Assembly: GCA_029204225.1 (NCBI GenBank)
Contig: CM055094.1
Coordinates: 19,474,702-19,538,701, forward strand
Length of the DNA stretch: 64,000 bases
Direction of reading: 5' to 3'
Source: Diphasiastrum complanatum
Taxonomy: Eukaryota; Streptophyta; Lycopodiopsida; Lycopodiales; Lycopodiaceae
Shown here one piece after another: positions 1-64,000 of this stretch. A program made the translations under genes and the position numbers. Position 1 is the stretch's first letter. Every line of letters begins with the position of its first letter. The notes below the pieces were generated by a model. That model was given only the letters and a program-made list of their open reading frames with translations, ran no database searches and had not been told where the DNA came from.

Positions 1-412
1 AAAATCATAAGCATGCTAGTAAGTCGACTCTGATAGGACGAAAAGACGGGGACAAGTCAGTTCCAACGACGGCATCTAATTCGATCGGGAGCTCTTCTCA
101 GCCAGATTTAATTTCGTCGACCGGTTGGAGAGCTCCATTCCTCAAAGATACGTACGTCTATGAAATGCTTTCACCAAAGCAAATTCAGAATGATCCTTCT
201 TTCGACCCAAGTTTTCGTAGAGGACGAGCGCTAGCATGGAGATCGGAAGACAACATATCTACATATCCTTGCAACTTTGCGATAATAGATGGCTCGTTCT
301 CTTCTCAGAAGGAATGTCATACATCAATCAATAATTCCTAGGAACTGAGTTCCGATTCTCGCGATCCTAAAATCCAGCTACAACAGAAGTTCTGCCTGAT
401 TCTGATACTGTC
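1..412 (+). pseudogene. Partial leading unit of module A tandem repeat
   Basis: This stretch repeats the DNA beginning at 666 with a period of 665 bp, so it is the broken upstream unit of the tandem array that forms the module A ORF. It runs out of frame because of small indels near its end (compare the bases before the ATG at 413 with those before 1080) and is cut by the window edge. It encodes the same GRKD-DKSVPTT and GWRAPFLKDTYVYEM segments as the next unit. Confidence 0.7.
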
Positions 413-1357
413 ATGGGCCAAAGGTTTGAGCAAGATCCACAATTTTTCATCAATCCCAACAAAGTGGTCCTTCACATGGAGGATACCAGGATCTATTTAC
501 GGATTCAATACTTTCCTGCAGACTCCATACATATCTTCGAAGAGATGTGCACTTCAGGATTTATTATCAATGCTGATGAGGGTTACATGTACACCCAGAG
601 ATCAAAAGCATTTACTGGTCGAAGACAAATACTGACTCGAAACTGCTTCAACTGGCTACGTGAGCAAAATCATAAGCATGCTAGTAAGTCGACTCTGATA
701 GGACGAAAAGACGGGGACAAGTCAGTTCCAACGACGGCATCTAATTCGATCGGGAGCTCTTCTCAGCCAGATTTAATTTCGTCGACCGGTTGGAGAGCTC
801 CATTCCTCAAAGATACGTACGTCTATGAAATGCTTTCACCAAAGCAAATTCAGAATGATCCTTCTTTCGACCCAAGTTTTCGTAGAGGACGAGCGCTAGC
901 ATGGAGATCGGAAGACAACATATCTGCATATCCTTGCAACTTTGCGATAATAGATGGCTCGTTCTCTTCTCAGAAGGAATTTCATACATCCATCAAGAAT
1001 TTTTGCAAATTAACTTCCGATTCTGATGATCCTACAATCAAGCTACAACACAAGTTCTGCCAGTTTCTGATGACTGTCATGGGCCGAAGGTTTGAGCAGG
1101 ATCCACAATTTTTCATCAATCCCAAAAAACCGGCGCTTCACATGGAGGATACCAGGATCTATTTACGGATACAATACTTTCCTGCAGACTCCATACAAAT
1201 CTTCGAAGAGATGTGCACTTCAGGCTTTATCATCAATGCTGATAAGGCTTACACCCAGAGATCAAAAGCATTTGCTGGTCGAAGACAAATGCTGACTCGA
1301 ACCTGCTCCAAGTGGCTGCGCGAGCAATATCATAAGCATGATGCCCACTATTCCTGA
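413..1357 (+). CDS. Module A: unrecognised protein with duplicated domain
   Basis: An open frame of 314 codons with no family I recognise. It holds one domain twice: residues about 1-90 and about 223-314 both read FEQDPQFFINP, then LHMEDTRIYLRIQYFPADSI, then a FEEMCTSGFIIN segment and a KWLREQ-HKH end. The linker (about 95-222) carries GRKDGDKSVPTT, GWRAPFLKDTYVYEML and CNFAIIDGSFSSQKE. The duplication matches the 665-bp DNA period, so it arose as a tandem DNA duplication. The inverted copy at 23607-25104 keeps the same two-domain layout and adds an upstream part with a hydrophobic start and a coiled-coil-like stretch. The true start is therefore probably upstream of this window and the ATG at 413 is internal. 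Frame retention in two diverged copies suggests a once-functional protein; function unknown. Confidence 0.5.
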   Translation: MGQRFEQDPQFFINPNKVVLHMEDTRIYLRIQYFPADSIHIFEEMCTSGFIINADEGYMYTQRSKAFTGRRQILTRNCFNWLREQNHKHASKSTLIGRKDGDKSVPTTASNSIGSSSQPDLISSTGWRAPFLKDTYVYEMLSPKQIQNDPSFDPSFRRGRALAWRSEDNISAYPCNFAIIDGSFSSQKEFHTSIKNFCKLTSDSDDPTIKLQHKFCQFLMTVMGRRFEQDPQFFINPKKPALHMEDTRIYLRIQYFPADSIQIFEEMCTSGFIINADKAYTQRSKAFAGRRQMLTRTCSKWLREQYHKHDAHYS

Positions 1358-4266: not shown

Positions 4267-4424
<158 letters not shown>

Positions 4425-5200
4425 CCAGTCAAGCCTACATGGCAGACCCACGTGGTATAGCTTAGTTGGCTTGCCACACAAGCCTATGTCAAGCCTATAT
4501 GGCAGACTGTATCAAGCCTATATCATGCCTATATGACCTACCACGCAAGCCTATGATAGGCCTACATGGCTTGCCACATGGCAAGTCCCAAGCCTATGTG
4601 GTTTATCTCATGACATGCCTACATGGCTTGCCACATGGCAACTTGGGAGCCCCAGCTCTCTCTCTCTAGCTCCACTCAAGCCTACATGGCAGAGCTTGGT
4701 TGGCTTGCCACACAAGCCTATGGCAAGCCTATGTGGTATCCTGTGACATGCTTACGTGGGAAGCATCACAAATATGCCATGCCTATGTGGCCTGCCATGC
4801 ATGCCTATGGCTTATCTCATGACATGTCTACATGGCTTGCCACATGGCAACTTGGGAGCCCCAGCTCTCTCTCTCTAGCTCCACTCAAGCCTACATGGCA
4901 GAGCTTGGTTTGCTTGCCACACAAGCCTATGGCAAGCCTATGTGGTAGCCTGCGACATGCTTAGGTGGGAAGATTAATATGCCATGCCTATGTGGCCTGC
5001 CACGCAAGCCTATGGTAGGCCTGTATGGTTTGCCAAGTGGCATCTTTTGAGCCCACCTATATATATATATATATCTCTAGGTCCACTCAAGCCTACGTGG
5101 CACAGGGCTCAGTTGGCTTGACATACAAGGTTATGGTAGGCCTACAGGGCTTGCCACATGGCAACCCTCAAGCCTGCATGATTTGCCATGTGGCATACCG
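4425..5200 (+). repeat. Degenerate array of GGCTTGCCACATGG-type units
   Basis: Imperfect short repeats built on AAGCCTACATGGC, GGCTTGCCACATGGCAA and CCTATGGTAGGCC, with a larger duplication of about 230 bp inside it (4610-4740 and 4800-4940, both containing CAACTTGGGAGCCCCAGCTC). Related arrays are at 12150-12600, 39950-40120 and 56940-57380. No convincing coding frame is present. Confidence 0.75.
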
Positions 5201-5589
5201 CTGTCATAGGTGTTTCGAAATCTCATGACAAGAAGCATGTCCTTGGGCATCAGTGTTACCCCCTTGCCATGAATGGAACACAGCATCGAATCCTCAAACA
5301 ATTTTGTCTGGAAGTCCTCGTATGCAATATGGAGGGCCTCCAATGCAGCGATATTCCACCTCACTGCATAGGGCAGATGGGTTGTCATATCTTGTGTAAC
5401 CTCCCTCACAGCCCGATACAAGGCTGCTTTTGGGATCACAAGTTTGGTGTACCTCTGCAAGGCCCTGATGTCCCTCAACCATGGACGGCGAGGTCTTCCA
5501 CGTCTTTGCGGACGTATGGGTTCAGATGTCTGGAGACGGGACGGTTGAACAAAATGGGTAAGCCTAGCAGTTTGCTTCGTCCGAGCCAT
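5131..5589 (-). CDS. Divergent centromere-type (CENH3-like) histone H3 ORF
   Basis: A 152-codon frame. Residues 1-9 are MARTKQTAR, identical to the H3 tail start; residues 10-37 are an Arg/Pro-rich divergent tail. The histone fold begins near residue 38: RDIRALQRYTKLVIPK matches the H3 alpha-N/RYQKSTELLI region, YRAVREVTQDM matches alpha-1, IAALEALHIAYEDF matches alpha-2 and LFEDSMLCSIHGKGVTLMPK matches [20 protein letters not shown]. Trp78 (VRW) before alpha-2 and a loop 1 several residues longer than in canonical H3 are hallmarks of CENP-A/CENH3. After about residue 126 the frame runs through a non-histone tail into flanking repeat DNA, so the native C-terminus is lost or replaced. No intron is seen, so it could be a retrocopy. 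Immediately upstream lies a truncated module C, and no G-box block is present here. Expression and function are unknown. Confidence 0.7.
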   Translation of the reverse strand: MARTKQTARLTHFVQPSRLQTSEPIRPQRRGRPRRPWLRDIRALQRYTKLVIPKAALYRAVREVTQDMTTHLPYAVRWNIAALEALHIAYEDFQTKLFEDSMLCSIHGKGVTLMPKDMLLVMRFRNTYDSGMPHGKSCRLEGCHVASPVGLP

Positions 5590-5641
5590 TAAGGCCGGAT
5601 ATCTATACCATGCGAGGACAAAGATACAACAGAAGAGAGAG

Positions 5642-6724
5642 CTAAATTATCTCGCGTAATGGCGACACTGAGAACTCTAAGGGTGATATCGCTACAACGC
5701 GAGAGAGTGGCAGAGACAGGCGGGGAGGGGCAGGAAATTGTTTTATATGTACTTGTCCAAATGCCTCTTTGATAATTTCAAACATTGTGTCATATGCATC
5801 CCTGCTAATACGAGAATAATCACATGATCCTTGTATCAATTTTCGGTCAATGATCTTGCCGACTTCACCCATAAGCGCCTCTGCAATCTTGGGCTTGATT
5901 CAAGAATATCGTTGATTTCCAAGTAGACTCGTCGTTGACTTGGCTGTAAGTACTGCACTCAAAGACTTTCCAATCATGTCCTTGTCTTTCAGATTTTCAT
6001 TGGTGACTAAAGCTGCTCTGCAAAATAAAAATAAGATTTAGAAAAAAACAATTCACAACCATTGATGTGCTAGATGAAACAAAACACATGAATAGTTTAA
6101 AACATAATCCTACTTGAAAGCATATATTCTTTTTTTCCATTGACCCCCACTTGTTGAGAGCTCGTCAATAGTGTTTAAAATAACTCTTTTTTGCTTATTG
6201 TTCAGTATTTTCTTCCGTAATGTGTTTACTTCTACATTTATTTGACAATATGAGGTACACAATGTTTGTACAATTAGTTTCATATTGTCAGTTTCTTGGT
6301 TGGGATTTAATATAATATCTTGCAAACGAGAATTATCTATCTTCAATATTTCATTTTCTTCTTTTGTTTGCAAAAAAAAGGTTTATTTTTCTCAGTAGTC
6401 AGTAAGCAAATCATTCAACATATTTTCCAAACAGTGGATTTTCTTCATTGAATAACTAATGCCATAACTTTTCAATCGTTCACAATAACCCAATAGACTA
6501 TTGTGTCCTTCACACAAAAACAGTATGAGTTGTGTGACCGATCTAAAATTTGGATGTTGCATTGAGCTTGGATCGATTGGATACAAACATCCATCAACCC
6601 ATAGATCATAATGTTTCCTGTCTTTCATCCTTTGGTGAGCTGGTAAGGTGGATCCTTTCAGATTTTTTCTCGACAGTGGAGCATATTCTATGGGAAGATC
6701 AATATGGAGATGATATTTAGACAT
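5642..6724 (-). pseudogene. Module C gene, left-arm copy (broken, 3' truncated)
   Basis: Reading down the minus strand: a first part (6724-6392, MSKYHLHIDLP), a coiled-coil-like part (6373-6110), an intron of 96 bp (6113 to 6018, GT...AG kept) and the start of exon 2 (GKSLSAVLTAKSTTSLLGNQ). Two parts are joined by a region with stops. Exon 2 carries a TGA at 5900-5902 where the copy at 38091-38093 has CGA, a CpG-decay type change. After HIKQFPAP (about 5735) it is fused to sequence upstream of the histone-like ORF; relative to 38.26-39.63 kb about 1.36 kb, including the last exon and the G-box block, is missing. Confidence 0.55.
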
Positions 6725-6764
6725 ATTAATAATCGATAGATTAATCTAGTAGAAAACCCACATG

Positions 6765-7190
6765 TTATATATCTTGTAAGCTATTAAAACTCGTCTTAAT
6801 TATATAAAAAAATAACAGTAAAAGTTTGAAATGACCTTGGCACTCTTTTTGATCCATCACACTCCATGTTTCTTGCCTTATATGCAAAATCAAAGCTTTG
6901 CAGTTATGAGCAAAGTAAGCAAAATATTTTTTCAATAGATGTGTGTTGAAATTGCAAATTTTAGATTGCAAGAGTTTGAGATAACCTTGCCGTTCCATTT
7001 GATCCAACGCACTCCATATTTTCAGAATTTCAAAAATTTAGATTCACGTTGGCGCTCATTGTGATCCAAAATATTCAAAGTTTCTTGCCATGATTTGCAG
7101 ATCGATAAGACTATTTTTCTTTGATGTGAACGCTTTTGTAGATGGAAAGAAAACTTTGATGTGCAATACGATTTGCATTTACATGAGAAG
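6765..7190 (-). repeat. Linker with three related DQ-ERQ-GHFK segments
   Basis: Between modules B and C lies a stretch holding three imperfect copies of a 40-50-bp sequence that can read DQMERQGYLKL, DQKECQGHFKL and DHNERQRESKF in varying frames. Frames are interrupted. Copies lie at 13560-13930, 36830-37230, 55700-56020 and 62670-63030. Confidence 0.45.
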
Positions 7191-7195
7191 TCATG

Positions 7196-8330
7196 TTAGT
7201 TAATGGTAGAAAATAGAATCTTGAAGTATGGACCCCACGCGTTGTGGCTACCCAACTTCCAGTTAACTACATATGTTACTAGTGAGGTCAAGTCATCGGA
7301 GTTGTGCGGGCAGACCAAAAACTCGATCGGAGTTTTAAAATTCGACGATTTTCTCTCTCTTACATGGCATTTCTTAGACAGCCCTTTTGGGCCATGGAAC
7401 TCCTCGAATGTAAACTCCATATCATTTGAGTCTGTTTCATCTGATGAAGCATGACGCTTCGCTTGTATCGATCCGTCATCTGTGACATAGAGTACATGGG
7501 TGTCTTTCTCGATGTAAGCTTCACTAGGTCGACCGTCTGGTGCTTTGCAGTTGGCCCTTGTGGAGAGAAAGAACTCTTTCTCTTTTGAGAAGCCGCTTGC
7601 GTGGAATCTGTTGCAATAGGCCTAGAAGTAGAGCTGGTATTCTTGGCTGGTTTTGAGGGAGTCTCCCAAGCTTTTATCTGCTAGCATCAAGTGGTCTCAA
7701 AATCGCGGTCAGTGGCTAAACTGCTGCAAAGTGACATCTATCAGAAGATAGCCCAATAACTGGAGGTTTGCTTGTTCTTGATATAGTCATGGAGGCAGTT
7801 GGAAGCAAACTGGGCCCAGTCATAAAGGTTCTGATCGTGTAGTTTAGAATCAGCCATCATGTGAAATAGTTTCATGGGGATACGCGTGACCGCACGAAGC
7901 AGCTAAGGGCTTATCATTTATGACCTCGATAAGGTAACCATCTTTTTTTTCCCATTTGTCCACTGAGGGGTCTATGTATTTGAAGTATGTTGTGGACTCA
8001 ATCTTTTTGAGGGTCCTATTGACTGTGTTTGGTCCCGTAGGGAAGCCAAATGTATTGAGGTCAACTCCAGAAATAGGGATAATATAAACACAATTTTGGT
8101 TAGGAGGTAACATGAACTGGAAAATCTGATGGTGTGGTTATAAGCAATATGCAATCGAAACGGGCTCTGATAGCCACTGATGAAAAGAGAAAGTTGGAAC
8201 TCTATGTGGCTCGAGAATTAGTGTGCCTCCTGGTACCAAGTATTCATCTCAGAGATATCGAGGCTTTCCATGGTGATGTCAATTCTGTCTTGAGTTGGGT
8301 CATCAGAACTGGAAGATGTTGTGGCAGACA
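7196..8330 (-). pseudogene. Module B, left copy 1 (broken)
   Basis: Minus-strand relic of an unrecognised protein. The order is: a short N-terminal frame (MSATTSSSS type) ending at a stop near 8218-8220 (TAA here, TAG in the six other copies); a frame MLPPNQNCVYIIPISG (8113-7850) with NTFGFP, KIESTTYFKYIDPSVDKW and IEVINDKPLA; a degraded middle; and a C-terminal frame FEEFHGPKGLSKKCHV to WGPYFKILFSTIN (7420-7196). It has the FEEFHGPKG insert and lacks the HEDTTTLVQPPP segment (see 13943 copy). Confidence 0.5.
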
Positions 8331-8429
8331 GGTTCTGGACTCGGCTGATGACTCTGTTGAAGGTTCGGCTCTGGCAACAGACAAGTGGAGTCTCAGTTCG
8401 GTCGACTGTGGAGGGCTTCGGATCGGTTG

Positions 8430-8600
8430 TCTTTAGATGGACTCGGCTCAGTCAACTTTGTATGCAGAGTATGGACGCTCAGCTCAGTCCACAGTGAATG
8501 CAGAGTATGGACGCTCGGCTCAGTCCACAGTGATTGCAGAGCATGGGGCCTAGGCTCTCTGAGCAGTGTATGTAGAGTATTGCTCGGCAGTGTATGGAGA
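8430..8600. repeat. 39-bp minisatellite upstream of module B
   Basis: About four imperfect copies of a 39-bp unit containing GCAGAGTATGGACGCTC and CTCAGTCCACAGTGA. In one minus-strand frame it encodes repeated 13-residue blocks of the type TLHSLWTEPSVH. All module B copies are preceded by this repeat with differing copy number. Confidence 0.7.
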
Positions 8601-8654
8601 CTAGAAATTTGTGAAAAACTTTGGAGCAATGTTGCTCTGATAGGATGTGGAAAC

Positions 8655-9085
8655 GATGATTATTGCATGATGATTCAACTGATCTTGTAGGAATGATTTG
8701 AAGAGGCATATTTATGTGCATATGATTCCTTTTGGTTCAGGTTAGGTCGTAATTTAAAAAATATTTTTCTTGATACAAGAATTGTGATTTAAAACACTTT
8801 TAAAATTTAAAAAAAAAAATTAAAAACTTTTGTTTTAATAAGCAAAAAGTTTTTTTTTAGTTATTCTCATGGTTGTGTCCAATGATTTTATTTTGAATAG
8901 TATTATTATTTCATATAAGGTGATGTGCAAAGATTAATAAAAAATTTTTTTAGCATTACAATATCTTTATTTGAAGCATTTTAAATATGGGTATTTTTTT
9001 TATAAAATTAAATTTTTTTTTTGTCTCCATGTCATTTATTTTTTTTGGGATCATCGTGTTTCATTATGAACAATCTTAGTAAATT
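8655..9085. other. Copia leader remnant joined to AT-rich DNA
   Basis: 8655-8745 repeats the stretch that precedes copia gag at 17400-17490 (TTGGTTCAGGTTAGG end), then switches abruptly to AT-rich DNA with A and T homopolymers shared with 19690-20090, 32380-32700 and 60700-61030. No gene seen. Confidence 0.5.
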
Positions 9086-9087
9086 CT

Positions 9088-9960
9088 TCCCTGGTGCATC
9101 CTTCCAAAATTAGATGAATGGCTTTTTTCTTTGGCTACACAAGCTCGCCAGAGATGTTGTTAAGTCACACATACTTTTCTCTTTTTACACCAGCACATGA
9201 TTGATTTGCTGCAAACCCTTCTGCTAAACTCCTTGCCAACTTAGGAGATGCTGAAAACATCAGAGAGATTGAATGCCTCCTCAAAAGACCACATTTTTTC
9301 ACTGTCCAAGATAAATTCTTCCAAAACTCAAATGAAAGGTCTGGTTCTTTCAACCTAAACAACCCTAGTTCGGTGGTTTATGGACAAAATATGGGAAAAA
9401 GAAAGAAGTATACATGATATAAAGGAAAGGAAGGACAAGGCAGTGGTGCAAAAGAAGACTTACTGGCTAAAAGACTGAACTTTTACAGGTATTAACTAGC
9501 TCGCAGGATGTTGAGGATCTGCATAGAAGAACTCTCACTAGGAATACGGTGGATCGACTACAGCTCAACACGCGCAAGGACAAGGCAAAGATATTTTTAC
9601 ATTTATGCTACTGTAACAGAATGTTTGAGACCATTCATGTGAGACACTTTTACACTCGTATTTTATTGCAGATCTTTGGCCTTATATACACAAGTCCTTC
9701 CATGATATTGTGTTTGCTTGGTCATACTTACCTAACATCAAAAGTGAATGGTACTTTCTGTTTGATGTTTTCTGCAATTTTGAAATTGAAAATCTATCTT
9801 TATGTTCTTGCTCTTTTCTGAAACATTTCAAAGATTTCATTTTGGAAAAATTTGACTATGTGCTTAAAACGGACTGCAATATAATTAGAAGTATGTACCT
9901 CATAAAATCTTACCTATTTAGGAAAAACATCATTGAACTCTTGTTTTAAATCTTGCATTA
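9088..9960 (+). pseudogene. Module G relic, unrecognised
   Basis: Short overlapping frames shared with 20095-20990 (direct) and 31425-32360 and 59790-60690 (inverted). The protein-like segments are LHKLARDVVKSH (about 9133-9170), a stretch with DKFFQNSNER (about 9310), DVEDLHRRTLTRNTVDRLQL (about 9505-9570) running to about 9821, and FDVFCNFEIENLSLCSCSF in another frame (9710-9949). Stops and frame changes interrupt every copy. I recognise no family. Confidence 0.35.
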
Positions 9961-9976
9961 AAAGCTGTTCTTGATG

Positions 9977-10870
9977 CTAATTTTTGGTGTTAAAGCATGT
10001 TAACACATTCACATCACAATGCATATGAGATTTCAAAACAAGATGAAAAAGCTCATACTTAGAATTATGTAGTTTTTCCATAACTTCCACCAAGGAAACC
10101 ATCAGTGATGGGAGTACATTAGTCTCCCCATAAATAGAGACTATCTGGTCAAACTTATCTTTAAATACAATATTATGGTTTTTAAAATCTATTTTCAACG
10201 AATCTGATTTATCAAAAAACCATTCATATCCTAGGATTACATAAGTTCTATCAAGATTCATAACATGGAAGTCGAGCCGCTCAACATGATCTTGCATCCG
10301 AACCTCCAAATTAGGGACTTTCACATCCCAAACTTCTGTGTCTGACCCTGAGGCTAGAGGACCACATAATGTTGAGCACTGGCCATGGTGGGCACCCGAA
10401 GCTTCTATACAAGCCGCACATTCAAAAAGTTGTGAGTACCTCCAAATTCAAACATTATACTTATGTCTTTTCCTAGAATATTGCCTTTAACTTGAAACCA
10501 TTGATTAGACTTGAAAGAAAGTGTACTGAAGTTACAAGTATATTCACAACCATTTAACAAATCAACTTTCAATTCACAACCATTTAACAAATCGACTTTC
10601 AATTTACCTGTCGGTAAATCCATCGCCATGAAACTTGATGATTTATTTTCCCTCTCGGATCTCTGTTTGGCATGATGCCCAAGTTTGTTGGCAAGCAGTA
10701 GCTTCTAGTTCATCAAAAAATAGATTTTTTATCTTATTATTTTTTGGCTTTTCATTCTTAGGCTTTTGGGCTGATTGGCTGTGCAAACTCTTCCGTGAGG
10801 CAATCACGGTGCTATCGTAGGCTTTAGCTACTCGGATAGCATCTTTCAATATGGAGGACATTCCCTTTGC
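9977..10870 (-). pseudogene. Ty3/gypsy aspartic-protease segment (broken)
   Basis: Three minus-strand frames: 10861-10643 (KDAIRVAKAYDSTVIASRKS, a gag/linker piece), 10629-10405 and 10324-9977. The second reads QWFQVKGNILGKDISIMF and then EFGGTHNFLN, aligning with the D-F/S-G-A/S-T-H-N-F active-site region of plant gypsy proteases; Asp is Glu here, so it should be inactive. The third has VMNLDRTYVILGYEWFF and IDFKNHNIVFKDK, the usual protease C-terminal part. No gypsy RT or integrase follows, and downstream DNA is module G in opposite orientation. Confidence 0.7.
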
Positions 10871-12117: not shown

Positions 12118-12149
12118 TTAGGGTTTGAAAAAGTTTATCTTCTTGGCTG

Positions 12150-12600: not shown

Positions 12601-12686
12601 TGTAGCCTTGTAGCCTCAACTCGTCGTATGTTGACCTTTCTGAAATCCCTGGAATCACCGGCCATTGTACAATCCCCGGGAATGGA

Positions 12687-13105
12687 CTTATATAGGAGAA
12701 AAAAGTTGGCACGTGTGAATCCCAGCGACACGTGGCCCAGTCAGTAGCTGACATGTGGAACCACACGTTTGTATACGCATTTGTGAAACTGCACATCTGG
12801 ATCAACACGTGTGGGATCCCATGTGGGGACACGTGGCTGAATGGATCAGTGACATGTGTTCTTGCATGTATCGGCTTGCACGTGTGGTCACGTGGCCCAA
12901 TCAGTACTTGACGTGTGGGACCACACTTCTTTATCCGCATGTGTGAAACTTGCACATGTGGCCATGTGGTCGAATGGCTTGGTGACGTGTGTTCTGGCAC
13001 GTGTTATCTCGCACGTGTGGGCTCGTGGCCGAATGGCAGATTGACGTGTATTGTAGCACGTGTGGTCTCACACGTGTGGACTGTTGTATTACGTGCCGTA
13101 GATCT
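12687..13105 (-). promoter_or_regulatory. G-box-dense promoter-like block with TATA box
   Basis: On the minus strand a TATATAA box (12694-12688) is preceded by about 400 bp holding ten perfect CACGTG palindromes plus many ACGTG/GACGTG variants. Chance expectation for a given 6-mer in 400 bp is about 0.1. CACGTG is the plant G-box/ABRE core bound by bZIP and bHLH factors. The block is partly built of tandem units of about 160 bp with TTGGGCCACGTG. It points toward the RT relic at 12117. Confidence 0.6.
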
Positions 13106-13207
13106 GATCCGTTGTTGGATCGACGAGTGTACGGCTTGGGTTTTATTGGTTCTAGCTATATAAATGTTGTTTGATCAGTTAAACATTTCGCTTAGTTTTG
13201 GATTTTC

Positions 13208-13500
13208 ACTCCCTGTAGCTCTTGGTGTGTGAACCAAATGACATTCCACCTTAAAATCACCTATTCTAGGAACATTGAGTGGTGTGTCACTCATATGATT
13301 CTTAATTATCTCTGGATATTTTGTTTTACTAAAAATCCAAAATAGAATTTCATGATCTTCTTTAAAACCTGTTTGAAACTTGTTTCCTGTCTGGTAAGGT
13401 GGATCCTTTCAGATTTTTTCTCGACAGTGGAGCATATTCTGTGGGAAGATCGATATGGAGATGATATTTAGACATCTTAATAATCGATAGATTAATCTAG
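13208..13500 (-). pseudogene. Internally deleted module C
   Basis: The C-terminal segment (FKEDHEILFWIFSKT) is joined to the first codons of the MSKYH part; the middle of the gene, intron included, is gone. The same junction occurs at 56090-56400, with a further small deletion here. It ends just upstream of the G-box block. Confidence 0.55.
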
Positions 13501-13559
13501 TAGAAAACCAACTTGTTATATATCTTGTAAGCTATTAAAACTATTCTTAATTATAAAAA

Positions 13560-13935
13560 AAGATTAATTGGAAAAGTTTGAAATGACCTTTGCGCTCTTT
13601 TTGATCCATCACACTCCAAGTTTCTTGCTTTATATGCAAAATCAAAGCTTTGCAGTTATGAGCAAAATAAGCAAAATATTTTTTCAATATATGTGTGTTG
13701 AAATTGCAAATTTCTGAATTGCAAAACTTTGAAATAACCTTGCCGCTCCATTTGATTCAACACACTCCGTATTTTCTGAATTTCAAGATTCACGTCGGCG
13801 CTCATTGTGATCCAAAATATTCAAAGTTTCTTGCCATGATTTTCAGATCGATAAGACTGTTTTTCTTTGATGTGAACGCTTTGAGTAGATGGAAAGAAAA
13901 CTTTGATGTGGAATATGATTTGCATTTACATGAGA
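13560..13935 (-). repeat. Linker between modules B and C, copy 2
   Basis: Copy of 6765-7190 with the three DQ-ERQ-type segments, interrupted frames. Confidence 0.4.
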
Positions 13936-13942
13936 AGTTATG

Positions 13943-15050
13943 CTAGTTAATGGTAGAAAATAGAATCTTGAAGTATGGACCCCACGCATTGTGGCTATCC
14001 AACTTCCAGTTAACTACATACGTTACTAGTGAGGTCAAGCTCCATATCATCTGAGTCTGTTTCATCTGATGAAGCATGACGCTTCGCTCGTATCTTGGTC
14101 CTTTGCCTGGATTGTTGTGTTGGTGGTGGTTGGACGAGTGTGGTGGTGTCTTCATGTTGAGCAAAAGACTCTTCAGCAGAATGATCCTTCGTCTGTGACA
14201 TAGAGGACATGGGTGTCTTTCTCGATGTAAGCTTCACTAGGCCAACTGTTTGGTTCTTTGCAGTTGGCCCTTGTGGAGAGAAGGAACTCTTTCTCTTTTG
14301 AGAAGCCACTTGCGTGGAATCTGTTGCAATAGGCCTAGAAGTAGAGTTGGTATTCTTGGCTGGTTCTGAGGGAGTCTCCCAAGCTTTTATCTGCTAGCAT
14401 CAAGTGGTCTCGAACTCGAGGTCGGTGGCTCAACTGCTACAGTGACATCTATCAGAAGATAGCCCAATAATTGGAGGTTTGCTTGTTCTTGATATAGTCA
14501 TGGAGGCAGTTGGAAGCAAACTGGGCCCAGTCATAAAGGTTCTGATCGTGTAGTCTAGAATCAGCCATCATGTGGAATAGTTTCATGGGGATACGCATGA
14601 TCTTGGACCTATAGCGCTATGTATATTTCGTCAGATAGGCGCATGGAGCAGCTAAGGGCTTATCATTTATGACCTCGATACGGTAACCATCTTTTTTTTT
14701 CCATTTGTCCACTGAGGGGTCTATGTATTTGAAATATGTTGTGGATTCAATCTTTTTGAGGGTCCTGTTGACTGTGTTTGGTCCCCTAGGGAAGCCAAAT
14801 GTATTGAGGTCAGCTCCAGAAATAGGGATAGTATAAACAAAATTTTGGTTAGGAGAACTGGAAAATCTGATGGTGTGGTTATAAGCAATATGCAATAGAA
14901 ATGGGCTCTAATAGCCACTAAAAAGAGGAAGTTGGAACTCTATGTGGCTCAAGAACTAGTGTGCCTCCTGGTACCAAGTGTTCATCTCAGAGATATCGAG
15001 GCTTTCCATGGTGATGTCAATTATGTCTTGAGTTGGGTCATCAGAACTGG
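13943..15050 (-). pseudogene. Module B, left copy 2
   Basis: This copy carries the alternative C-terminal region: a frame from 14309 to 14010 encodes SFSPQGPTAKNQTVGL, then a Ser/Thr/Gln-rich stretch with HEDTTTLVQPPPTQQ and SDETDSDDMELDL, which is absent from the 7196 copy. It lacks the FEEFHGPKG insert. The middle frame (14895-14617) has a 9-bp deletion removing the MLPP start found elsewhere, which links it in frame with the upstream segment. The stop after the N-terminal frame is at 14956-14958. Confidence 0.5.
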
Positions 15051-17435: not shown

Positions 17436-17439
17436 TCTT

Positions 17440-35719: not shown

Positions 35720-36811
35720 AGGAACTACAAAGAACCCCTCGATATCTCTGAGATGAACACTTGGTACCAGGAGGCACACTAGTTCCTGAGCCACATAGAG
35801 TTCCAACTTCCTCTTTTGATCAGTGGCTATCAAAGCCCATTTCGATTGCAGAATGCTTATAACCACACCGACAGATTTTCCAGTTCATGTTACCTCCTAA
35901 CCAAAATTTTGTTTATATTATCCCTATTCCTGGAGCTGACCTCAATACATTTGGCTTCCCTAGGGGACCAAACACAGTCAATAGGACCCTCAAAAAGATT
36001 GAATCCACAACATACTTCAAATACATAGACCCCTCAGTGGACAAATGGGAAAAAAACGATAGTTACCGTATCGAGGTCATAAATGATAAGTCCTTAGCTG
36101 CTCTGTGCGCCTATCTAACAAAATATACATAGGGCTATAGGTCCACATGATGGCTGATTCTAAACTACACGATCAGAACCTTTATGACTGGGCCCAGTTT
36201 GCTTCCAACTGCCTCCATGACTATATCAAGAACAAGCAAACCTCCAGTTATTGGGCTATCTTCTGGTAGATGTCACTTTGCAGCAGTTGAGCCACCGACC
36301 TCGATTTTGAGGCCACTTGATGCTAGCAGATAAAAGCTTGGGAGACTCTCTCATAACCATCCAAGAATACCAACTCTACTTCCAGGCCTATTGCAAGAGA
36401 TTCCACGCAAGCGGCTTCTCAAAAGAGAAAGAGTTCTTTCTCTCCACAAGGGCCAACTGCAAAGCACCAAACGGTTGACCTAGTAAAGCTTACATCGAGA
36501 AAGACACCCATGTACTCTATGTCACAGACGAAGGATCGATACAACCGAAGTGTCATGTTTCATCAGATGAAACAGACTCAAATGATATGGAGTTTACATT
36601 CGAGGAGTTCCATGGCCCAAAAGGGCTGTCTAAGAAATGCCATGTAAGAGAGAGAAAATTGTCGAATTTTAAAACTCTGACCGAGTTTTTGGTCTGCTCG
36701 CACAACTCCGATGACTTGACCTCACTAGTAACGTATGTAGTTAACTGGAAGTTGGGTAGCCGCAACGCGTGGGGTCCATACTTCAAGATTCTATTTTCTA
36801 CCATTAACTAA
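35720..36811 (+). pseudogene. Module B, copy 4
   Basis: Stop TAG after the N-terminal frame at 35780-35782; frame 35887-36132 (MLPPNQNFVYIIPIPGADLN to AYLTKYT); degraded middle with QEYQLYFQAYCKRFHASGFS and EAYIEKDTHVLYVTDEGS in shifting frames; C-terminal frame 36587-36811 from FEEFHGPKG to PYFKILFSTIN. It lacks the HEDTTTLVQPPP segment. It is followed by the linker and module C in the same orientation. Confidence 0.5.
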
Positions 36812-36829
36812 CATGACTTCTCATGTAAA

Positions 36830-37230
36830 TGAAAATCGTATTGCACATCAAAGTTTTCTTTCCATCTACTAAAGCGTTCACATCAAAGAAAATTAGTCTT
36901 ATTGATCTGCAAATCATGGCAAGAAACTTTGAATACTTTGGATCACAATGAGCGCCAACGTGAATCTAAATTTTTGAAATTCAGAAAATATGGAGTGTGT
37001 TGGATCAAATGGAGTGGCAAGGTTATCTCAAACTTTTGCAATTTCAACACACATCTATTGAAAAAATATTTTGCTTATTTTGCTCATAACTGCAAAGCTT
37101 TGATTTTGCATATAAAGCAAGAAACATGGAGTGTGATGGATTAAAAAGAACGCCAAGGTCATTTCAAACTTTTCCAATTATTATTTTTTATTATGAAGAC
37201 GAGTTTTAATAGCTTACAAGATATATAACA
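36830..37230 (+). repeat. Linker between modules B and C
   Basis: Holds the three DHNERQ/WIKWSG/DQKERQ-type segments and a stretch FNTHLLKKYFAYFAHNCKAL in a frame of 80 codons (36902-37144). It could be a decayed exon of the B or C gene. Confidence 0.4.
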
Positions 37231-37268
37231 AGTGGGTTTTCTACTAGATTAATCTATCGATTATTAAG

Positions 37269-38950
37269 ATGTCTAAATATCATCTCCATATTGATCTTTC
37301 CACAGAATATGCTCCACTATCGAGAAAAAATCTGAAAGGATCCACCTTACCAGCTCACCAAAGGACGAAAGACAGGAAACATTGTAATCTATGGGTTGAT
37401 GGAAGTTTGTATCCAATCAATCCAATCTCAATGCAACATCCAAATTTTAGATCGGTCACACAACTCATACTGTTTTTGTGTGAAGGACACAATAGTCTAT
37501 TGGGTTATTGTGAAAGATTGAAAATTTATGGCATTAGTTATTCAATGAAAAAATTCCACTGTTTGGAAAATATGTTGAATGGTTTGCTTACTGACTACTG
37601 AGAAAAAGAAACTTTTTTTTGCAAACAAAAGAAGAAAATGAAATCTTGAAGATAGATAATTCTCGTTTGCAAGATATTATATTAAACCTCAACCAAGAAA
37701 CTGACTATATGAAACTAATTGTACAAACATTGTGTACCTCATATTGTCAAATAAATGTAGAAGTAAACCCAATACAGAAGAAAATACTGAACAATAAGCG
37801 AAAAAGAGTTATTTTAAAAAGTATTGATGAGCTCTCAACAAGTGGGGGTCAACGGACAAAAAGAATATATGCTTTCAAGTAAGATTATGTTTTAAAATAT
37901 TCATGTGTCTTGTTTCATCTAGCACATCAATGGTTGCGAATTGTTTTTTTTCTAAATCTTATTTTTGTTTTGCAGAGCAGTTTTAGTCACCAATGAAAAT
38001 CCGAAAGACAAGGACATGATTGGAAAGTCTTTGAGTGCAGTACTTACAGCCAAGTCAACGACGAGTCTACTTGGAAATCAACGATATTCTCGAATCAAGC
38101 CCAAGATTGCAGAGGCCCTTATGGGCGAAGTCAGCAAGATCGTTGACCAAAAATTGATACAAGGAGCATGTGATTATTCTGGTATTAGCAGGGGTGCATA
38201 TGACACAATGTTTAAAATTATCAAAGAGGCATTTGGACAAGTACATATAAAACAATTTCCTATTCCCCGGCCCTTTCAAATCAAATTAGAGAGGGATGTG
38301 TTAAACAAGGGTTTGCAAAACATCATTGGTATTCCTTACCATATCAATGAAATTTATAACTCAAAACATGGCACTTTGTCATATGATTCTACCAACAATA
38401 TGTTTGTAGATCTGAATCATTTATAGAGATTTATTGTAAAGTTTTATGGAATCACAAATGAAATTGTTGGAAAATTGATATTAGTTCTCCAAGTTAGATG
38501 AATCAGAAGTAATAAAGGGACAAAAGCTGGAAAGGGTTAGTTTTACACTTATGAATGGAACATTAAGCAATACGATAAACTCGGAGAGTCTTAATTTCAG
38601 TGTGCAGTCCGAAAATAATATTTGGTGGTTGGCAGCTTTCCAAGTTTAAATCTATTCTATTTCATTTCAATAAATTAATGGTTTTGTGTTTTAAGCTAAT
38701 ATTAGTTTGTTATTATAATTCTCTTAAAATAGTTCATGATTTTGTGTTTCAAACAGGTTTTAAAGAAGATCATGAAATTCTATTTTGGATTTTTAGTAAA
38801 ACAGAATATCTTGAAATAATTAAGAATCATATGAGTGACACACCAATCAATGTTCCTAGAATAGGTGATTTTAAGGTGGAATGGTATTTTGTTCGCACAC
38901 CAAGAGCTACAGGGAGTGAAAATCCAAAACTTAGCGAAATGTTTTAACTG
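37269..38950 (+). pseudogene. Module C: intron-containing unknown gene, best copy
   Basis: Part 1 (37269-37601) opens MSKYHLHIDLSTEYAPLSRK and ends at TGA 37599-37601, which is CGA in the 63426-63428 copy. Part 2 (37619-37882) is heptad-like (EENEILKIDNSRLQDIILNL). A 97-bp intron follows, donor GTAAGA at 37879 and acceptor TTTTGTTTTGCAG ending 37975; splicing keeps the frame into exon 2 (AVLVTNENPKDKDMIGKSLS to about 38426). Exon 2 ends at a TAG. A later open stretch (about 38530-38650, NIWWLAAFQ) and a last segment (about 38756-38947, FKEDHEILFWIFSKT to NPKLSEMF) may be further exons. No family recognised. The G-box block and the histone-like fragment follow on the same strand. Confidence 0.55.
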
Positions 38951-39029
38951 ATCAAACAACATTTATATAGCTAAAACCAATAAAATCCAAGCCGTACACT
39001 CGTCGATCCAACAGCGGATCGGATCTATG

Positions 39030-39440
39030 GCGGGTAATACAACCGTCCACACATGTGAGACCACACGTGCTACAATACATGTCAATCTGCCATTCGGCCA
39101 CGTGCCCACACGTGCAAGCAAACACGTGCCAGAACACACGTCACCACACCAGTCGACCACATGGCCACATGTGCAAGTTTCACACATGCGGATACAGAAG
39201 TGTGGTCCCACACGTCAAGTACTGATTGGGCCACGTGACCACACGTGCGAGCCGATACGTGCAAGAACACATGTCGCTGATCCATTCGGCCACGTGTCCC
39301 CACATGGGATCCCACACGTGTTGATCCAGACGTGCAGTTTCACACATGCATATACAAATGTGTGGTTCCACATGTCAGCTATTGACTGGGCCACGTGTCG
39401 CTGGGATTCACACGTGCCAACTTGTTTCTCCTACATAAGT
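39030..39440 (+). promoter_or_regulatory. G-box-dense promoter block facing the histone-like ORF
   Basis: Ten CACGTG sites within about 380 bp, inverted relative to 12687-13105. The TATA box has decayed to TACATAA (39432-39438; TATATAA in the other copies). Sequence identity with the other blocks ends at about 39459, some 20-25 bp beyond the TATA box, where the histone-associated leader begins. Confidence 0.6.
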
Positions 39441-39499
39441 CCATTCCTGGGGATTGTATAGGTTTTCGCGTAATTTGCTGTCATGTTTGATTGCTTCCA

Positions 39500-39720
39500 T
39501 ACGACCTGCATGCGTGATATCGCCATCATGCGAGCGACCTCGTCTCCAGGCCTATTCCTGACACCCTCTCACGTCGTAGCGATATCAGCCTGACTTTCCT
39601 AGTATCGCCATCATGCAAGCCCCTGCCTCTCCCCACCTGTCTTTGCCACTCTCTCGCGTTGTAGCAATTTCACCCTTAGAGTTCTTAGTGTCGCCATTAC
39701 GCGAGATAATTTAGCTCTCT
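39500..39720 (+). repeat. Two 104-bp repeats in the histone-like leader
   Basis: Two diverged copies of a CpG-containing unit with TATCGCCATCATGCGAG and TCTCGCGTTGTAGCAAT-type sequence lie just upstream of the histone-like start. The left-arm copy (5600-5730) retains only the proximal one. Confidence 0.6.
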
Positions 39721-39949
39721 CTTCTGCTATATCTATGTCCGCACATGGTATAGATATCCGGCCTCAATGGCTCGGACGAAGCAAACTTCTAGGCTTACCC
39801 ATTTTGTTCAACCGTCCCGTCCCCAGACATCTGAACCCATACGTCTGCAAAGACGCGGAAGACCTCGCCATCCATGGTTGAGGGACATCAGGGCCTTGCA
39901 GAGGTACACCAAACTTGTGATCCTGAAAGCAGCCTTGTACCGGGCTGAA

Positions 39950-43608: not shown

Positions 43609-43609
<1 letters not shown>

Positions 43610-54489: not shown

Positions 54490-55640
54490 CCAGAACATGT
54501 CTGCCACAACATCTTCCAGTTCTGATGACCCAACTCAAGACATAATTGACATCACCATGGAAAGCCTCAATATCTCTGAGATGAACACTTGGTACCAGGA
54601 GGCACACTAGTTTCTGAGCCACATAGAGTTCCAACTTCCTCTTTTCAGTGGCTATCAGAGCCCATTTCTATTGCATATTGCTTATAACCACACCGACAGA
54701 TTTTCCAGTTCATATTACCTCCTAGCCAAAATTTTGTTTATATTATCCCTATTTCTGGAGCTAACCTCAATACATTTGGCTTCCCTAGGAGACCAAACAC
54801 AGTCAACAGGACCCTCAAAAAGATTGAATCCACAGCATACTTCAAATACATAGACCCCTCAGTGGACAAATGGAAAAAAAAAGATGGTTATCGAATCGAG
54901 GTCATAAATGATAAGCCCTTAGCTGCTCCATGCGCCTATCTAATGAAATATACATAGCGCTACAGGTCCAAGATCATTCGTATCCCATGAACTATTCCAC
55001 ATGATGGTTGATTCTAGACTATATGATCAGAACCTTTATGACTGGGCCCAGTTTGCTTCCAACTGCCTCCATGACTATATCAAGAACATGCAAACCTCCA
55101 GTTATTGGGCTATCTTCTGATAGATGTCACTGTAGCAGTTGAGCCACCGACCTCGAGTTCGAGACCACTTGATGCTAGTAGATAAAAGCTTGGGAGACTC
55201 CCTCAGAACCAGCCAAGAATACCAACTCTACTTCCAGGCCTATTGCAACAGATTCCACGCAAGCGGCTTCTCAAAAGAGAAAGAGTTCCTTCTTTCCACA
55301 AGGGCCAACTGCAAAGCACCAAATGGTCGGCCTACTGAAGCTTACATCGAGAAAGACACCCATGTCCTCTATGTCACAAACGAAGGATCATTCTGCTGAA
55401 GAGTCTTTTGCTCAACATGAAGACACCACCACACTGGTCCAACCACCACCAACACAACAGTCCAAGCAAAGGACCAAGATACGAGCAAAGCATCAAGCTT
55501 CATTAGATGAAACAGACTCAGATGATATGGAGCTTGACCTCACTAGTAGCATATGTAGTTAACTGGAAGTTGGATAGCTGCAACGCATGGGGTCCATACT
55601 TCAAGATTCTATTTTCTACCATTAACTAACATAACTTCTC
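54490..55640 (+). pseudogene. Module B, copy 6
   Basis: Stop TAG at 54608-54610. C-terminal frames 55139-55399 (RTSQEYQLYFQAYCNRFHAS, SGFSKEKEFLLSTRANCKAP, YIEKDTHVLYV) and 55323-55562 (HSAEESFAQHEDTTTLVQPP to SDDMELDLTSS). It has the HEDTTTLVQPPP segment and lacks FEEFHGPKG, like 13943. The VTYVVNWKL tail is out of frame. Confidence 0.5.
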
Positions 55641-55699
55641 ATGTAAATGCAAATCGTATTGCACATCAAAGTTTTCTTTCCATCTACTCAAAGTGTTCA

Positions 55700-56400
55700 C
55701 ATCAAAGAAAAACAGTCTTATCAATAAAAGAAACTTTGAATATTTTGGATCACAATGAGCGCCAACGTGAATCTTGAAATTCAAAAAATACGGAGTGTGT
55801 TGGATCAAATGGAGCGGCAAGGTTATTTCAAAGTTTTGCAATTCAAAAATTTGTAATTTCAACACACATATATTGAGAAAATATTTTGCTTATTTTGCTC
55901 ATAACTGCAAAGCTTTGATTTTGCATATAAAGCAAGAAACTTGGAGTGTGATGGATCAAAAAGAGCGCGAAGGTCATTTCAAACTTTTCCAATTAATTTT
56001 TTTTTATAATTAAGACAAGTTTTAATAGCTTACAAGATATATAACAAGTTGGTTTTCTACTAGATTAATCTATCGATTATAAAGATGTCTGAATATCATC
56101 TCCATATTGATCTTTCCACTAAATATGCTCCATTGTCTAGAAAAAATCTGAAAGGATCCACCTTACCAGCTCCCCAAAGGACGAAATACAGGAAACAAGT
56201 TTCAAATAGGTTTTAAAGAAGATCATGAAATTCTATTTTGGATTTTTAGTAAAACAAAACATCCAGAGATAATTAAGAATGATATGAGCGACACACCACT
56301 CAATGTTCCTAGAATAGGTGATTTTAAGGTGGAATGGCATTTGGTTCACACAGAAGAGCTACCAGGAGTGAAAATCCAAAACTTAACGAAATGTTTTAAC
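55700..56400 (+). pseudogene. Linker plus internally deleted module C
   Basis: Linker 55700-56020, then the first part of module C (MSEYHLHIDLSTKYAPLSRK region from 56085) joined at about 56200 to the C-terminal segment. About 1.4 kb of the gene is absent relative to 37.37-38.75 kb. Junction shared with 13208-13500. Confidence 0.55.
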
Positions 56401-56479
56401 TGATCAAACAACATTTACATACCTAAAACCAATAAAACCCAAGCCGTACACTCGTCGATCCAACAACGGATCAGATCTA

Positions 56480-56890
56480 TGGCGCGTAATACAACCGTCC
56501 ACACGTGTGAGATCACACGTACTACAATTCGTCAATCTGCGATTCGGCCACGTGCCCACACGTGCGAGCGAACACGTGCCAGAACACACGTCATCAAACC
56601 ATTCGACCACATGGCCACATGTGCAAGTTTCACACATGCGGATACAAAAGTGTGGTCCCACACGTCAGGTACTAATTGGGCCACGTGACCACACGTGCGA
56701 GCCGATACGTGCAAGAACACATGTCGCTGATCCATTCGGCCACGTGTCCCCACGTGGGATCCCACACGTGTTGATCCAGACGTGCAGTTTCATACATGCA
56801 TATACAAACGTGTGGTTCCACATGTCAGCTACTGACTGGGCCACGTGTCGTTGGGATTCACACGTGCCAACTTTTTTCTCCTATATAAGT
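56480..56890 (+). promoter_or_regulatory. G-box-dense promoter block with intact TATA
   Basis: About eleven CACGTG sites and a TATATAA box at 56882-56888 with transcription expected near 56910-56920. The downstream DNA is the repeat array and then the RT relic at 57451. Confidence 0.6.
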
Positions 56891-56939
56891 CCATTCCCGA
56901 GGATTGTGCAATGGCCGGTGATTCCTGGGATTTCAGAAA

Positions 56940-61479: not shown

Positions 61480-62624
61480 ATGACCCAACTCAAGACAGAA
61501 TTGACATCACCATGGAAAGTCTCGATATCTCTAAGATGAACACTTGGTACTAGGAGGCACACTAGTTCCTGAGCCACATAGAGTTCCAACTTCCTCTTTT
61601 GATCAGTGGCTATCAGAGCCCGTTTCGATTGCATATTGCTTATAACCACACTGACAGATTTTCCAATTCATGTTACCTCCTAACCAAAATTTTGTTTATA
61701 TTATCCCTATTTCTGGAGCTGACCTCAATACATTTGGCTTCCCTAGGGAACCAAACACAGTTAGTAGGACCCTCAAAAAAATTGAATCCATAGCATACTT
61801 CAAATACATAGACCCCTCAGCGGACAAATGGAAAAAAAAGATGGTTATCGTATTGAGGTCATAAATGATAAGCCCTTAGCTGCTCCGTGCGCCTATCTAA
61901 CAAAATATACATAGGGCTATAGGTCCAAGATCACGCGTATCCCCATGAAACTATTCCACATGATGGCTGATTCTAAACTACATGATCAGAACCTTTATGA
62001 CTGGGCCCAGTTTGCTTCCAACTGCCTCCATGACTATATCAAGAACAAACAAACCTCCAGTTGTTGGACTATCTTCTGATAGATGTCACTTTGCAGCAGT
62101 TGAGCCACCGACCTCAATTTTGAGACCACTTGATGCTAGCAGATAAAACCTTGGGAGACTCCCTCAGAACCAGCCAAGAATACCAACTCTACTTCTAGGC
62201 CTATTACAACAGATTCCACGCAAGCGGCTTCTCAAAAGAGAAAGAGTTCTTTCTCTCCACAAGGGCCAACTGCAAAGCACCAAACGGTCGACCTAGTGAA
62301 GCTTACATCGAGAAAGACACCCATGTACTCTATGTCACAGACGAAGGACCGATACAAGCGAAGTGTCATGCTTCATTAGATGAAACAGACTCAAATGATA
62401 TGGAGTTTACATTCGAGGAGTTCCATGGCCCAAAAGGGCTGTCTAAGAAATGCCATGTAAGAGAGAGAAAATCGTCGAATTTTAAAACTCCGACCGAGTT
62501 TTTGGTCTGCCCGCACAACTCCGATGACTTGACCTCACTAGTAACGTATGTAATTAATTGGAAGTTGGGTAGCCACAACGTGTGGGGTCCATACTTCAAG
62601 ATTCTATTTTCTACCATTAACTAA
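61480..62624 (+). pseudogene. Module B, copy 7
   Basis: Stop TAG at 61563-61565. Frames 61670-61864 (MLPPNQNFVYIIPISG) and 62400-62624 (FEEFHGPKG to FKILFSTIN). A FEEF-type copy, lacking HEDTTTLVQPPP. Confidence 0.5.
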
Positions 62625-62669
62625 CATGACTTCTCATGTAAATGCAAACCGTATTGCACATCAAAGTTT

Positions 62670-63030
62670 TTGTTCCATCTACTAAAGCGTTCACATCAAA
62701 GAAAAACTGTCTTATCGATCTGCAAATCATGGCAAGAAACTTTGAATATTTTGGATCACAATGAGCGCCAACGTGAATCTAAATTTTTGAAATTCGAAAA
62801 ATACGGAGTGTGTTGGATCAAATGGAGCGGCAAGGCTATCTCAAACTTTTGCAATTCAAAAATTTGCAATTTCAACACACATCTATCGAAAAAATATTTT
62901 GCTTATTTTGCTCATAACTGCAAAGCTTTGATTTTGCATATAAAGCAAGAAACATGGAGTGTGATGGATCAAAAACATCGCCAAGGTCATTTCAAACTTT
63001 TTCAATTATTTTTTTTATAATTAAGACGAG
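62670..63030 (+). repeat. Linker between modules B and C, longest frame
   Basis: A 116-codon frame (62670-63020) runs through the whole linker without a stop here: WQETLNILDHNERQRESKFL, then a KICNFNTHLSKKYFAYFAH stretch and WSVMDQKHRQGHFKLFQ. This is the best argument that the linker was coding. Confidence 0.4.
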
Positions 63031-63095
63031 TTTTAATAGCTTACAAGATATATAACAAGTGGGTTTTCGACTAGATTAATCTATCGATTATTAAG

Positions 63096-64000
63096 ATGTC
63101 TAAATATCATCTCCATATTGATCTTCCCACAGAATATGCTCCACTGTCGAGAAAAAATATGATAGGATCCACCTTAGCAGCTCACCAAAGGACGAAAGAC
63201 AGGAAACATTGTGATCTATGGGTTGATGGAAGTTTGTATCCAATCGATCCAAGCTCAATGCAACATCCAAATTTTAGATTGGTCACACAACTCGTAATGT
63301 TTTTGTGTGAAGGACACAATGGTCTATTGGGTTATTGTGAAAGATTGAAAAGTTATGGCATTAATAATTCAATGAAAAAAATTCACTGTTTGGAAAATAT
63401 GTTGAATGGTTTGCTTACTGACTACCGAGAAAAAGAAACTTTTTTTTGCAAACAAAAAAAGAAAATGAAATCTTGAAGATAGATAATTCTCGTCTGCAAG
63501 ATATTATATTAAACCTCAACCAAGAAACTGACAATATGAAACTAATTGTACAATTATTGTGTACCTCATATTGTCAAATAAATGTAGAAGTAAACACATT
63601 ACGGAAAAAAATATTGAACAATAAGCAAAAAAGAGTTATTTTAAAAAGTATTGACGAGCTCTCAACAAGTGGGGGTCAACGGAAAAAAAGAATATATGAT
63701 TTCAAGTAGGATTATGTTTTAAACTATTCATGTGTTTTGTTTCATCTAGCACATCAGTGGTTGTGAATTGTTTTTTTCTAAATCTTATTTCTATTTTGCA
63801 GAGCAGCTTTAGTCACCAATGAAAATCCGGAAGACAGGGACATGATTGGAAAGTCTTTGAGTGCAGTACTTACAGCCAAGTCAACGACGAGTCTACTTGC
63901 AAATCAACGATACTCTCGAATCAAGCCCAAGATTGCAGAGGCCCTTATGGGCTGAGTTGGCAATATCATTGACCGAAAATTGATACAAGGAGCATGAGAT
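63096..64000 (+). pseudogene. Module C, right copy (cut by window end)
   Basis: Part 1 (63096-63476) reads through the CGA at 63426-63428 to 126 codons, then shifts out of frame at a T8 run just before the coiled-coil part (63446-63709). The intron is 63706-63801 (donor GTAGGA, acceptor TATTTTGCAG). Exon 2 begins with a KAALVTNENPEDRDMIG-type segment and has a TGA near 63954 (GAA-GTC region at 38130). The downstream part lies outside the window. Confidence 0.55.

Follow-up and report, generated by a model that had tools for sequence, protein, structure and literature searches.

Why does an open reading frame (ORF) with the look of a centromeric histone H3 lie among transposon relics in the genome of the lycopod Diphasiastrum complanatum? 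The stretch of DNA analysed here (the window, 64,000 nucleotides, C3:19474702-19538701 in genome numbering) contains such an ORF on its minus strand, at 5131-5589, with 152 amino acids. A preliminary description made from the sequence alone had taken it for a CENH3/CENP-A-like histone and left several origins in play. The features on which that description relied are present: the translated ORF begins with MARTKQTAR, alignment places a Trp at residue 78, and the motif LFEDSMLCSIH is found. The eight residues after Met are those of H3 (ARTKQTAR), after which the N-terminal tail diverges and Lys9 is replaced by Leu. The reading as an H3-type protein is sound for codons 1-126, which comprise an H3-like tail and a histone fold and for which the profile check gave a clear histone-fold match (Pfam Histone, E 4.5e-20, 72.6 bits, cut-off 26.4). 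PDB sequences agree, with 174 distinct sequences matching the ORF at E <= 0.001; each of the 60 listed among these 174 bears the name of H3, an H3 variant, cnp1 or an H3/CENP-A chimera. Residues 127-152 are not histone; they are a read-through into tandem-repeat DNA, at a place where the complete gene instead continues into a linker and a protease. A chance match is excluded because of the profile E-value and the further genomic matches described below. With a 22-row alignment, AlphaFold predicts that the window fold consists of four helices that follow one another as in H3, although confidence is low (pLDDT 53.9); the model from the single sequence was poor (pLDDT 38.5). Foldseek with the 22-row model gave E <= 0.001 for rank 1 only, and of the best 14 PDB matches all but rank 5 (yeast UAF complex) have nucleosome titles, with CENP-A at rank 14; such matches prove little because the model is so weak. 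A tRNA scan of the window found nothing, nor did Rfam at its gathering threshold.

The histone part is highly repeated. Protein search of the genome (1.74 Gb, 5,176 contigs) with the window ORF yielded 7,378 first-look candidates, and all of the 150 that were scored match. Counted by hand, 92 of these 150 fall within C3:18.5-30.2 Mb or C14:49.4-49.9 Mb and take up the first 86 rows; most of those 86 rows match over all 152 residues and so represent the truncated form with its repeat tail. The remaining 58 rows are scattered over many contigs and mostly match residues 1 to ~135 at 80-88%; eight of them combine an open frame of 330-382 amino acids with a stop-free match. Twenty dispersed copies (L009-L028), picked from the protein-search list, were read. 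Their mutual similarity extends up to 4.7 kb or more upstream of the histone ATG; downstream, in the longest copies, it breaks off sharply after ~3.9 kb at a point that they share. The pattern of this 3' terminus, with <= 3 mismatches, occurs 333 times in the genome versus 0 for a reversed-pattern control, and hand comparison places 12 of 63 listed exact 3' termini ~2.7-3.9 kb downstream of a scored histone start in the right orientation. Terminal inverted repeats (TIRs) of the type CATTAGAGGAGTT...CCAAAAGG stand at both ends of L014, L018, L021 and L028, where they flank the histone ATG; these are four of the five copies for which upstream DNA was fetched, and in the fifth (L023) the 3' end was found and the other TIR was not. 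TIR-to-TIR distances in the four are 8.8-10.1 kb (the L018 element occupies C8:17887388-17897366), and no target-site duplication was seen by eye in any of them. The carrier of the histone is a dispersed, high-copy DNA transposon with TIRs, roughly 9-10 kb long.

In one family of this element (family A), the complete histone-bearing gene has four exons and about 517 codons, with splice sites common to the copies. In exon 1 lie the tail, the histone fold, a basic linker rich in Ser and Pro (PPRKKRKQAQPKRSQPKPRSPSSSPSPPP) and the beginning of a protease-like domain. NKHWSV, MNSLHA and SSQQDDAFSCGWYSIWNV are encoded by exons 2 and 3, and the C-terminus by exon 4. L014 was the final reference copy, L012 and L009 being frameshifted in exon 2, and a 15-copy set was assembled by leaving out L010, L012, L023, L026 and L027 of the 20 as truncated, interrupted or frameshifted. 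None of these 15 is intact, each having at least one stop, frameshift or gap over the exons. The protease-like domain contains KHW, QQD and SCGW motifs. Of the residues presumed catalytic, His survives in 13 of the 14 copies in which its site is present, the Gln pair is complete in 13 of 15, and Cys is found in 11 of 15. Three fragments were compared with Pfam Peptidase_C48 (cut-off 20.7 bits), of which those of L014 (23.4 bits) and L022 (20.8 bits) match and that of L015 (SCEW for SCGW) does not; at E <= 1, eight of 14 members match and six do not. We consider the assignment to the C48 (Ulp1-like) cysteine proteases likely rather than certain, and any activity hypothetical, because the Pfam match is marginal, two PDB sequence searches returned no Ulp1, hhalign against an unverified yeast Ulp1 sequence aligned the HW and QQ..CG motifs at only P 0.06, and Asn replaces the usual catalytic Asp in all 14 copies that retain this site.

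Seen against this complete gene, the window holds remnants of several element copies (Table 1). Relative to L018, copy 1 lacks ~4.2 kb between gene A, the gene upstream of the histone gene, and the histone leader, together with all beyond codon 129; copy 2 lacks ~2.9 kb and all beyond codon 60, and it matches the first over 326 bp at 93.9%. The two histone copies have flanks in common and different internal deletions.

Table 1. Positions of element copies, their parts and derivatives in the window.
Positions	Strand	Feature	Basis
4268..5199	.	(TC)n tract and tandem repeat, period 209, entered by the truncated histone ORF	
5131..5211	-	Read-through tail: last 26 codons and stop, tandem-repeat DNA	5046-5199 repeated at 12167-12320 and 57248-57401, 95%
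5212..5589	-	Histone-fold part, codons 1-126: H3-like tail, alphaN, alpha1, long loop 1, alpha2, alpha3	Pfam, PDB sequences, 5735-5202 aligned to L018 at 85%
5590..5734	-	5' leader of histone gene; ends at 5734 by internal deletion relative to L018	Alignment with copy 2; L018 8066 then 12315
5732..7411	-	5' part of copy 1: gene A fragment and 5' TIR ending 7411/7412	L018 6388-8066 at 93%; TIR match
12666..14039	-	Histone-less derivative: upstream region 12666-13379 and gene A fragment 13391-14039	
36596..38889	+	5' TIR (36595) and gene A part of copy 2	
38890..39458	+	Region upstream of second histone gene; CACGTG-type motifs abundant, TATA-like motif near end (by eye)	L018 11586-12614 versus 38890-39947, 84%
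39622..39947	+	Second histone-gene start: leader and first ~60 codons, ATG 39767, truncated into the same kind of repeat as the ORF copy	
55533..56905	+	Second histone-less derivative, counterpart of 12666-14039	
62408..64000	+	Third 5' TIR and gene A fragment, ends at window edge	

Most of the 64 kb window is made up of long duplications, both inverted and direct, shuffled into a mosaic in which pieces > 1 kb are ~83-97% identical. One inverted duplication pairs 5819-17823 with 64000-51754 in two pieces at 93-94%. A tandem repeat family with units like CAAGCCTATGTGGCTTGCCACATGG occupies 4589-5199, where it adjoins a long (TC)n tract, 12167-12590 and 56980-57401, and flanks the histone relic and the histone-less counterparts. 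Other repeats share the window. Duplicated fragments of Copia-type retrotransposons lie at 17608-18324 (+), 34210-34881 (-) and 47495-47833 (-), recognised by Pol_BBD and gag_pre-integrs at 17791-18327, by DUF4219 at 47495-47833 and, for 34210-34881, by similarity. Broken ORFs at 11203-12117 (-) and 57893-58366 (+) look reverse-transcriptase-like by eye (IPMGFSYSPMSCNWYLSFF...YIDDICF), perhaps of Penelope-like type, and the two pieces scanned have no Pfam match. A repeated ORF with internal duplication at 371-1354 (+), 23610-24566 (-) and 43003-43626 (-) has a weak Pfam match to IP5PC_F Ig-like (E 0.007).

The fold is not confined to family A. When the genome was searched with the Arabidopsis CENH3 fold, 150 rows were scored, of which 13 reached the score of canonical H3; the three of these 13 that were read (L029, L031, L035) are canonical H3, and six other rows that were read all carry transposon-type folds, belonging to family B (L047), family C (L046, L050, L051) and family D (L048, L049). 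Tested copies of B, C and D match Pfam Histone at 89-102 bits. The long loop 1 that had been put forward as a CENH3 hallmark is real in the window ORF, where it exceeds that of H3 by four residues, but it fails as a general mark: among the copies read, loop 1 is four residues longer in A, one longer in C and of canonical length in B and D. Past the fold, B and C continue into sequence that can be aligned to the beginning of the protease domain of A (alignment only), and the D copies end soon after it, L049 at RRERN directly after the fold and L048 a few codons later. Within family C, L046 and L051 differ at third codon positions by 0.29 in the fold and 0.09 in the protease head, a pattern that looks like exchange of the fold through recombination.

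Gene A is a candidate transposase. Pieces of it have no Pfam match above cut-off, and the MULE domain is absent from the ORFs scanned. The L017 piece at -3806 to -2964 from the histone ATG, with GDLKSLKCMFNVSHGANSKHPCLYC, has no Pfam match and recalls by eye the RNase H-type transposases with a zinc-binding motif. In L048 (D), a gene-A-like N-terminal domain (38% identity, E 8e-16) and the fold are encoded in one 391-residue frame, which indicates that the fold travels with gene A. At C17:36.1 Mb, L058 with L049 has the D fold after a long poly-proline stretch in the same 394-residue frame, where the N-terminus of L048 is instead gene-A-like.

Did the fold come from CENH3 or from canonical H3? 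Published marks of CENH3 are a longer loop 1 and the absence of Gln69, Phe85 and Thr108 (PMC4359364, PMC7598501). The window ORF has three of these four and keeps Gln69. At that position, A also has Gln, B and C have Arg and D has Asp; Phe85 is replaced by Trp in the window, A and B and by Val in D, and is Phe in C; Thr108 is replaced by Ser in the window, A, C and D and by Ala in B. The motifs LIP-x-A-x-F and VRE-V/I-T are common by eye to the transposon fold and plant CENH3. In a tree of 16 sequences, the A, B, C and D folds form one group (bootstrap 81) beside plant CENH3 (62) and apart from H3 (95); this placement is a lead only because most references, including all plant CENH3, were unverified sequences. 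Forcing A, B and C to group with H3 is rejected by the AU test, weakly (p 0.040 without D, 0.039 with D), but not by the KH and SH tests (about 0.08). The CENH3-type origin suggested earlier is thus weakly favoured over canonical H3 by these residues and this tree.

The CENH3 of the host was sought with the Arabidopsis fold and with its second half (150 rows each) and was not recognised among the rows read. Five rows of the second-half search were read, of which L052, L053, L054 and L056 are canonical or near-canonical H3 exons and L055 belongs to family C. The D copies L048 and L049 were considered as host CENH3 and ruled out, as their fold occurs in at least 150 places (150 of 150 scored places match, among 6,156 candidates). 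Introns and the many transposon copies may hide the host gene.

Selection is best judged between families. Families A and B differ in the histone fold by pS 0.72-0.75 and pN 0.17-0.18 and in the protease head by pS 0.73-0.80 and pN 0.34-0.36, and differences in the fold at codon positions 1, 2 and 3 are about 0.26, 0.13 and 0.52. Because synonymous sites between A and B are saturated, yet the fold differs little, selection has kept the fold; the comparison indicates that it has been carried for a long time and conserved, more so than the protease head. Within family A (15 copies), the fold has an omega of 0.25 (0.15-0.44), a value biased downwards because it was the histone part whose protein match decided which copies were taken. 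The protease, to which this bias does not apply, has 0.41 (0.30-0.56); the tail has 0.42, the linker 0.58 and the C-terminus 0.75. These within-family values are only supportive, because intron pseudo-frames (0.55-1.05, with two of three intervals below 1) and shifted frames (0.59-0.97) show that the measure is low even without coding. Alignment columns that do not vary among 22 sequences from A, B, C, D and host H3 include H3 R83, E105, D106, H113, K115, T118, L126 and R129, which we take to have roles in DNA or histone contact; a nucleosomal role of the transposon fold is possible because such contact-type columns are invariant.

Taken together, the window ORF is very probably a truncated, array-amplified relic of exon 1 of a high-copy TIR transposon gene that encodes a histone fold, a linker and a likely C48 protease downstream of a candidate transposase, with B, C and D also carrying the fold. 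Among the origins listed in the preliminary description, a histone carried by an element is the one that held, since the fold lies inside exon 1 of a TIR-bounded transposon gene with dispersed copies. The same architecture, a fold wholly in exon 1 of a four-exon gene between TIRs, speaks against a decayed paralog and against a retroposed host CENH3, dead or alive. Retroposition would suit the intron-free histone part and the CENH3-like features; set against them are the presence of the same DNA, with leader and flanks, inside TIR-bounded elements elsewhere, the histone segment that in other copies runs on into more exon-1 sequence of a longer gene, and a search of the ends of that segment in which neither a poly(A) tract nor a target-site duplication was seen. 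Retroposition is therefore extremely improbable, and a host gene or retrocopy reading of the window ORF was rejected in favour of a truncated exon-1 piece. Could the truncated C3/C14 frame nevertheless have become a free-standing H3-like protein? Six of the eight best copies (L001, which is the window's own, L002 and L005-L008) keep the 152-residue frame with a nearly identical repeat-derived tail, and among these eight pN is 0.017 versus pS 0.069, a low pN that is partly due to their being picked as best protein matches. However, 38 of the first 86 rows, all C3/C14, carry a stop (hand count), the upstream region is deleted in the window copy, and the two in-window histone copies, compared over 59 codons of which seven differ, show five nonsynonymous and three synonymous changes, close to the 6:2 expected without selection. 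Such a new protein is very improbable, and the window ORF copy, without linker, protease, 3' end and upstream region, is most likely inert.

Two further readings concern the complete gene. The fold could have been captured once and now be a non-functional passenger, in keeping with the lesions in every aligned copy and with the frequent capture of host exons by transposons described in one review (PMC13317346). Yet the synonymous saturation between A and B with few amino-acid changes, the slower change at codon positions 1 and 2 than at 3, the residues invariant from A to D and host H3, and the stronger conservation of the fold than of the protease head all tell against a passenger, which we regard as improbable. 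A different function is also conceivable, in which the histone-protease protein is a targeting factor whose CENH3-like fold brings the transposition complex to (peri)centromeric chromatin as a safe integration site. The CENH3-like residues, the tree placement and the block of copies on C3 and C14 would fit this, but the remaining rows of family A and those of family D are spread across many large contigs, and the C3/C14 block is largely the truncated derivative and looks like segmental amplification rather than fresh insertion; targeting of this kind is rather unlikely, if less so than a passenger.

If the transposon gene has a working product, how might it act? In the wider interpretation, an entire group of plant-type DNA transposons would have domesticated a centromeric histone and kept it under selection as a working part, which in family A would be fused to a deSUMOylase-type protease, so that the protein docks on nucleosomes to undo silencing or steer integration; we hold the arguments for and against it to be evenly matched. 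The more specific sequence of events is tentative and somewhat doubtful. The family-A protein would enter the nucleus by its basic linker; its histone fold could pair with H4 or use histone chaperones and thereby dock on chromatin; the tethered protease might then strip SUMO, or a mark like it, from proteins of the silencing machinery or the centromere; and related copies would thereby escape silencing or integrate where they are tolerated. By analogy with Ulp1-carrying Vandal/KAONASHI elements, a chromatin-docking anti-silencing protein is our guess. Why a transposon keeps its own histone is in any case a testable question.

Several known systems resemble parts of this element. Plant CENH3 and CENP-A have in common with it the histone fold, the replacement of Phe85 by Trp (A and B) and of Thr108 by Ser or Ala (all four families), and the neighbouring position in the tree; they differ in that the fold is here part of a transposon gene and in family A precedes a linker and protease, and in that a long loop 1 occurs in family A only (among the copies read), which retains Gln69. 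CENH3 searches by loop 1 or single residues in such genomes will match very many transposon copies. Giant viruses such as medusavirus encode histones and are likewise mobile genetic elements with their own core-histone fold. A viral origin was considered here and rejected, as the viral contig collection held no relative of the histone or of the gene A piece, and the medusavirus nucleosome ranked 17 (E 3.2) in the fold search. DNA transposons of the Spy type make no target-site duplication and are flanked by AAA/TTT; TIRs without a visible duplication are also found here, whereas the flanks are not AAA/TTT (compared by description only). We know of no earlier core histone as an element-encoded component of a eukaryotic transposon, and this one would be the first, if true. 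No core-histone fold as a conserved part of transposon families surfaced in the results of literature searches confined to open-licence papers, and its presence in several diverged families is new as far as we know; it offers a test of whether selfish DNA writes its own variant nucleosomes. The nearest parallel is provided by the KAONASHI/KIU genes of Vandal non-TIR MULEs, in which, according to the review, a DNA transposon carries an accessory gene with a Ulp1/C48-type protease domain that is conserved in eudicots (PMC13317346). Those elements are MULEs without TIRs, whereas the element here has TIRs and no recognised MULE transposase, and it has a histone fold, whereas the word 'histone' is absent from the main text of that review (PMC13317346). 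The same source states that hypomethylation of related elements is directed by VANC proteins; it records Ulp1 domains in transposons without an explanation for them and calls their precise role unknown (PMC13317346). How transposons use Ulp1-type proteases could be tested directly with the element described here, in which a histone would tether the protease to chromatin.
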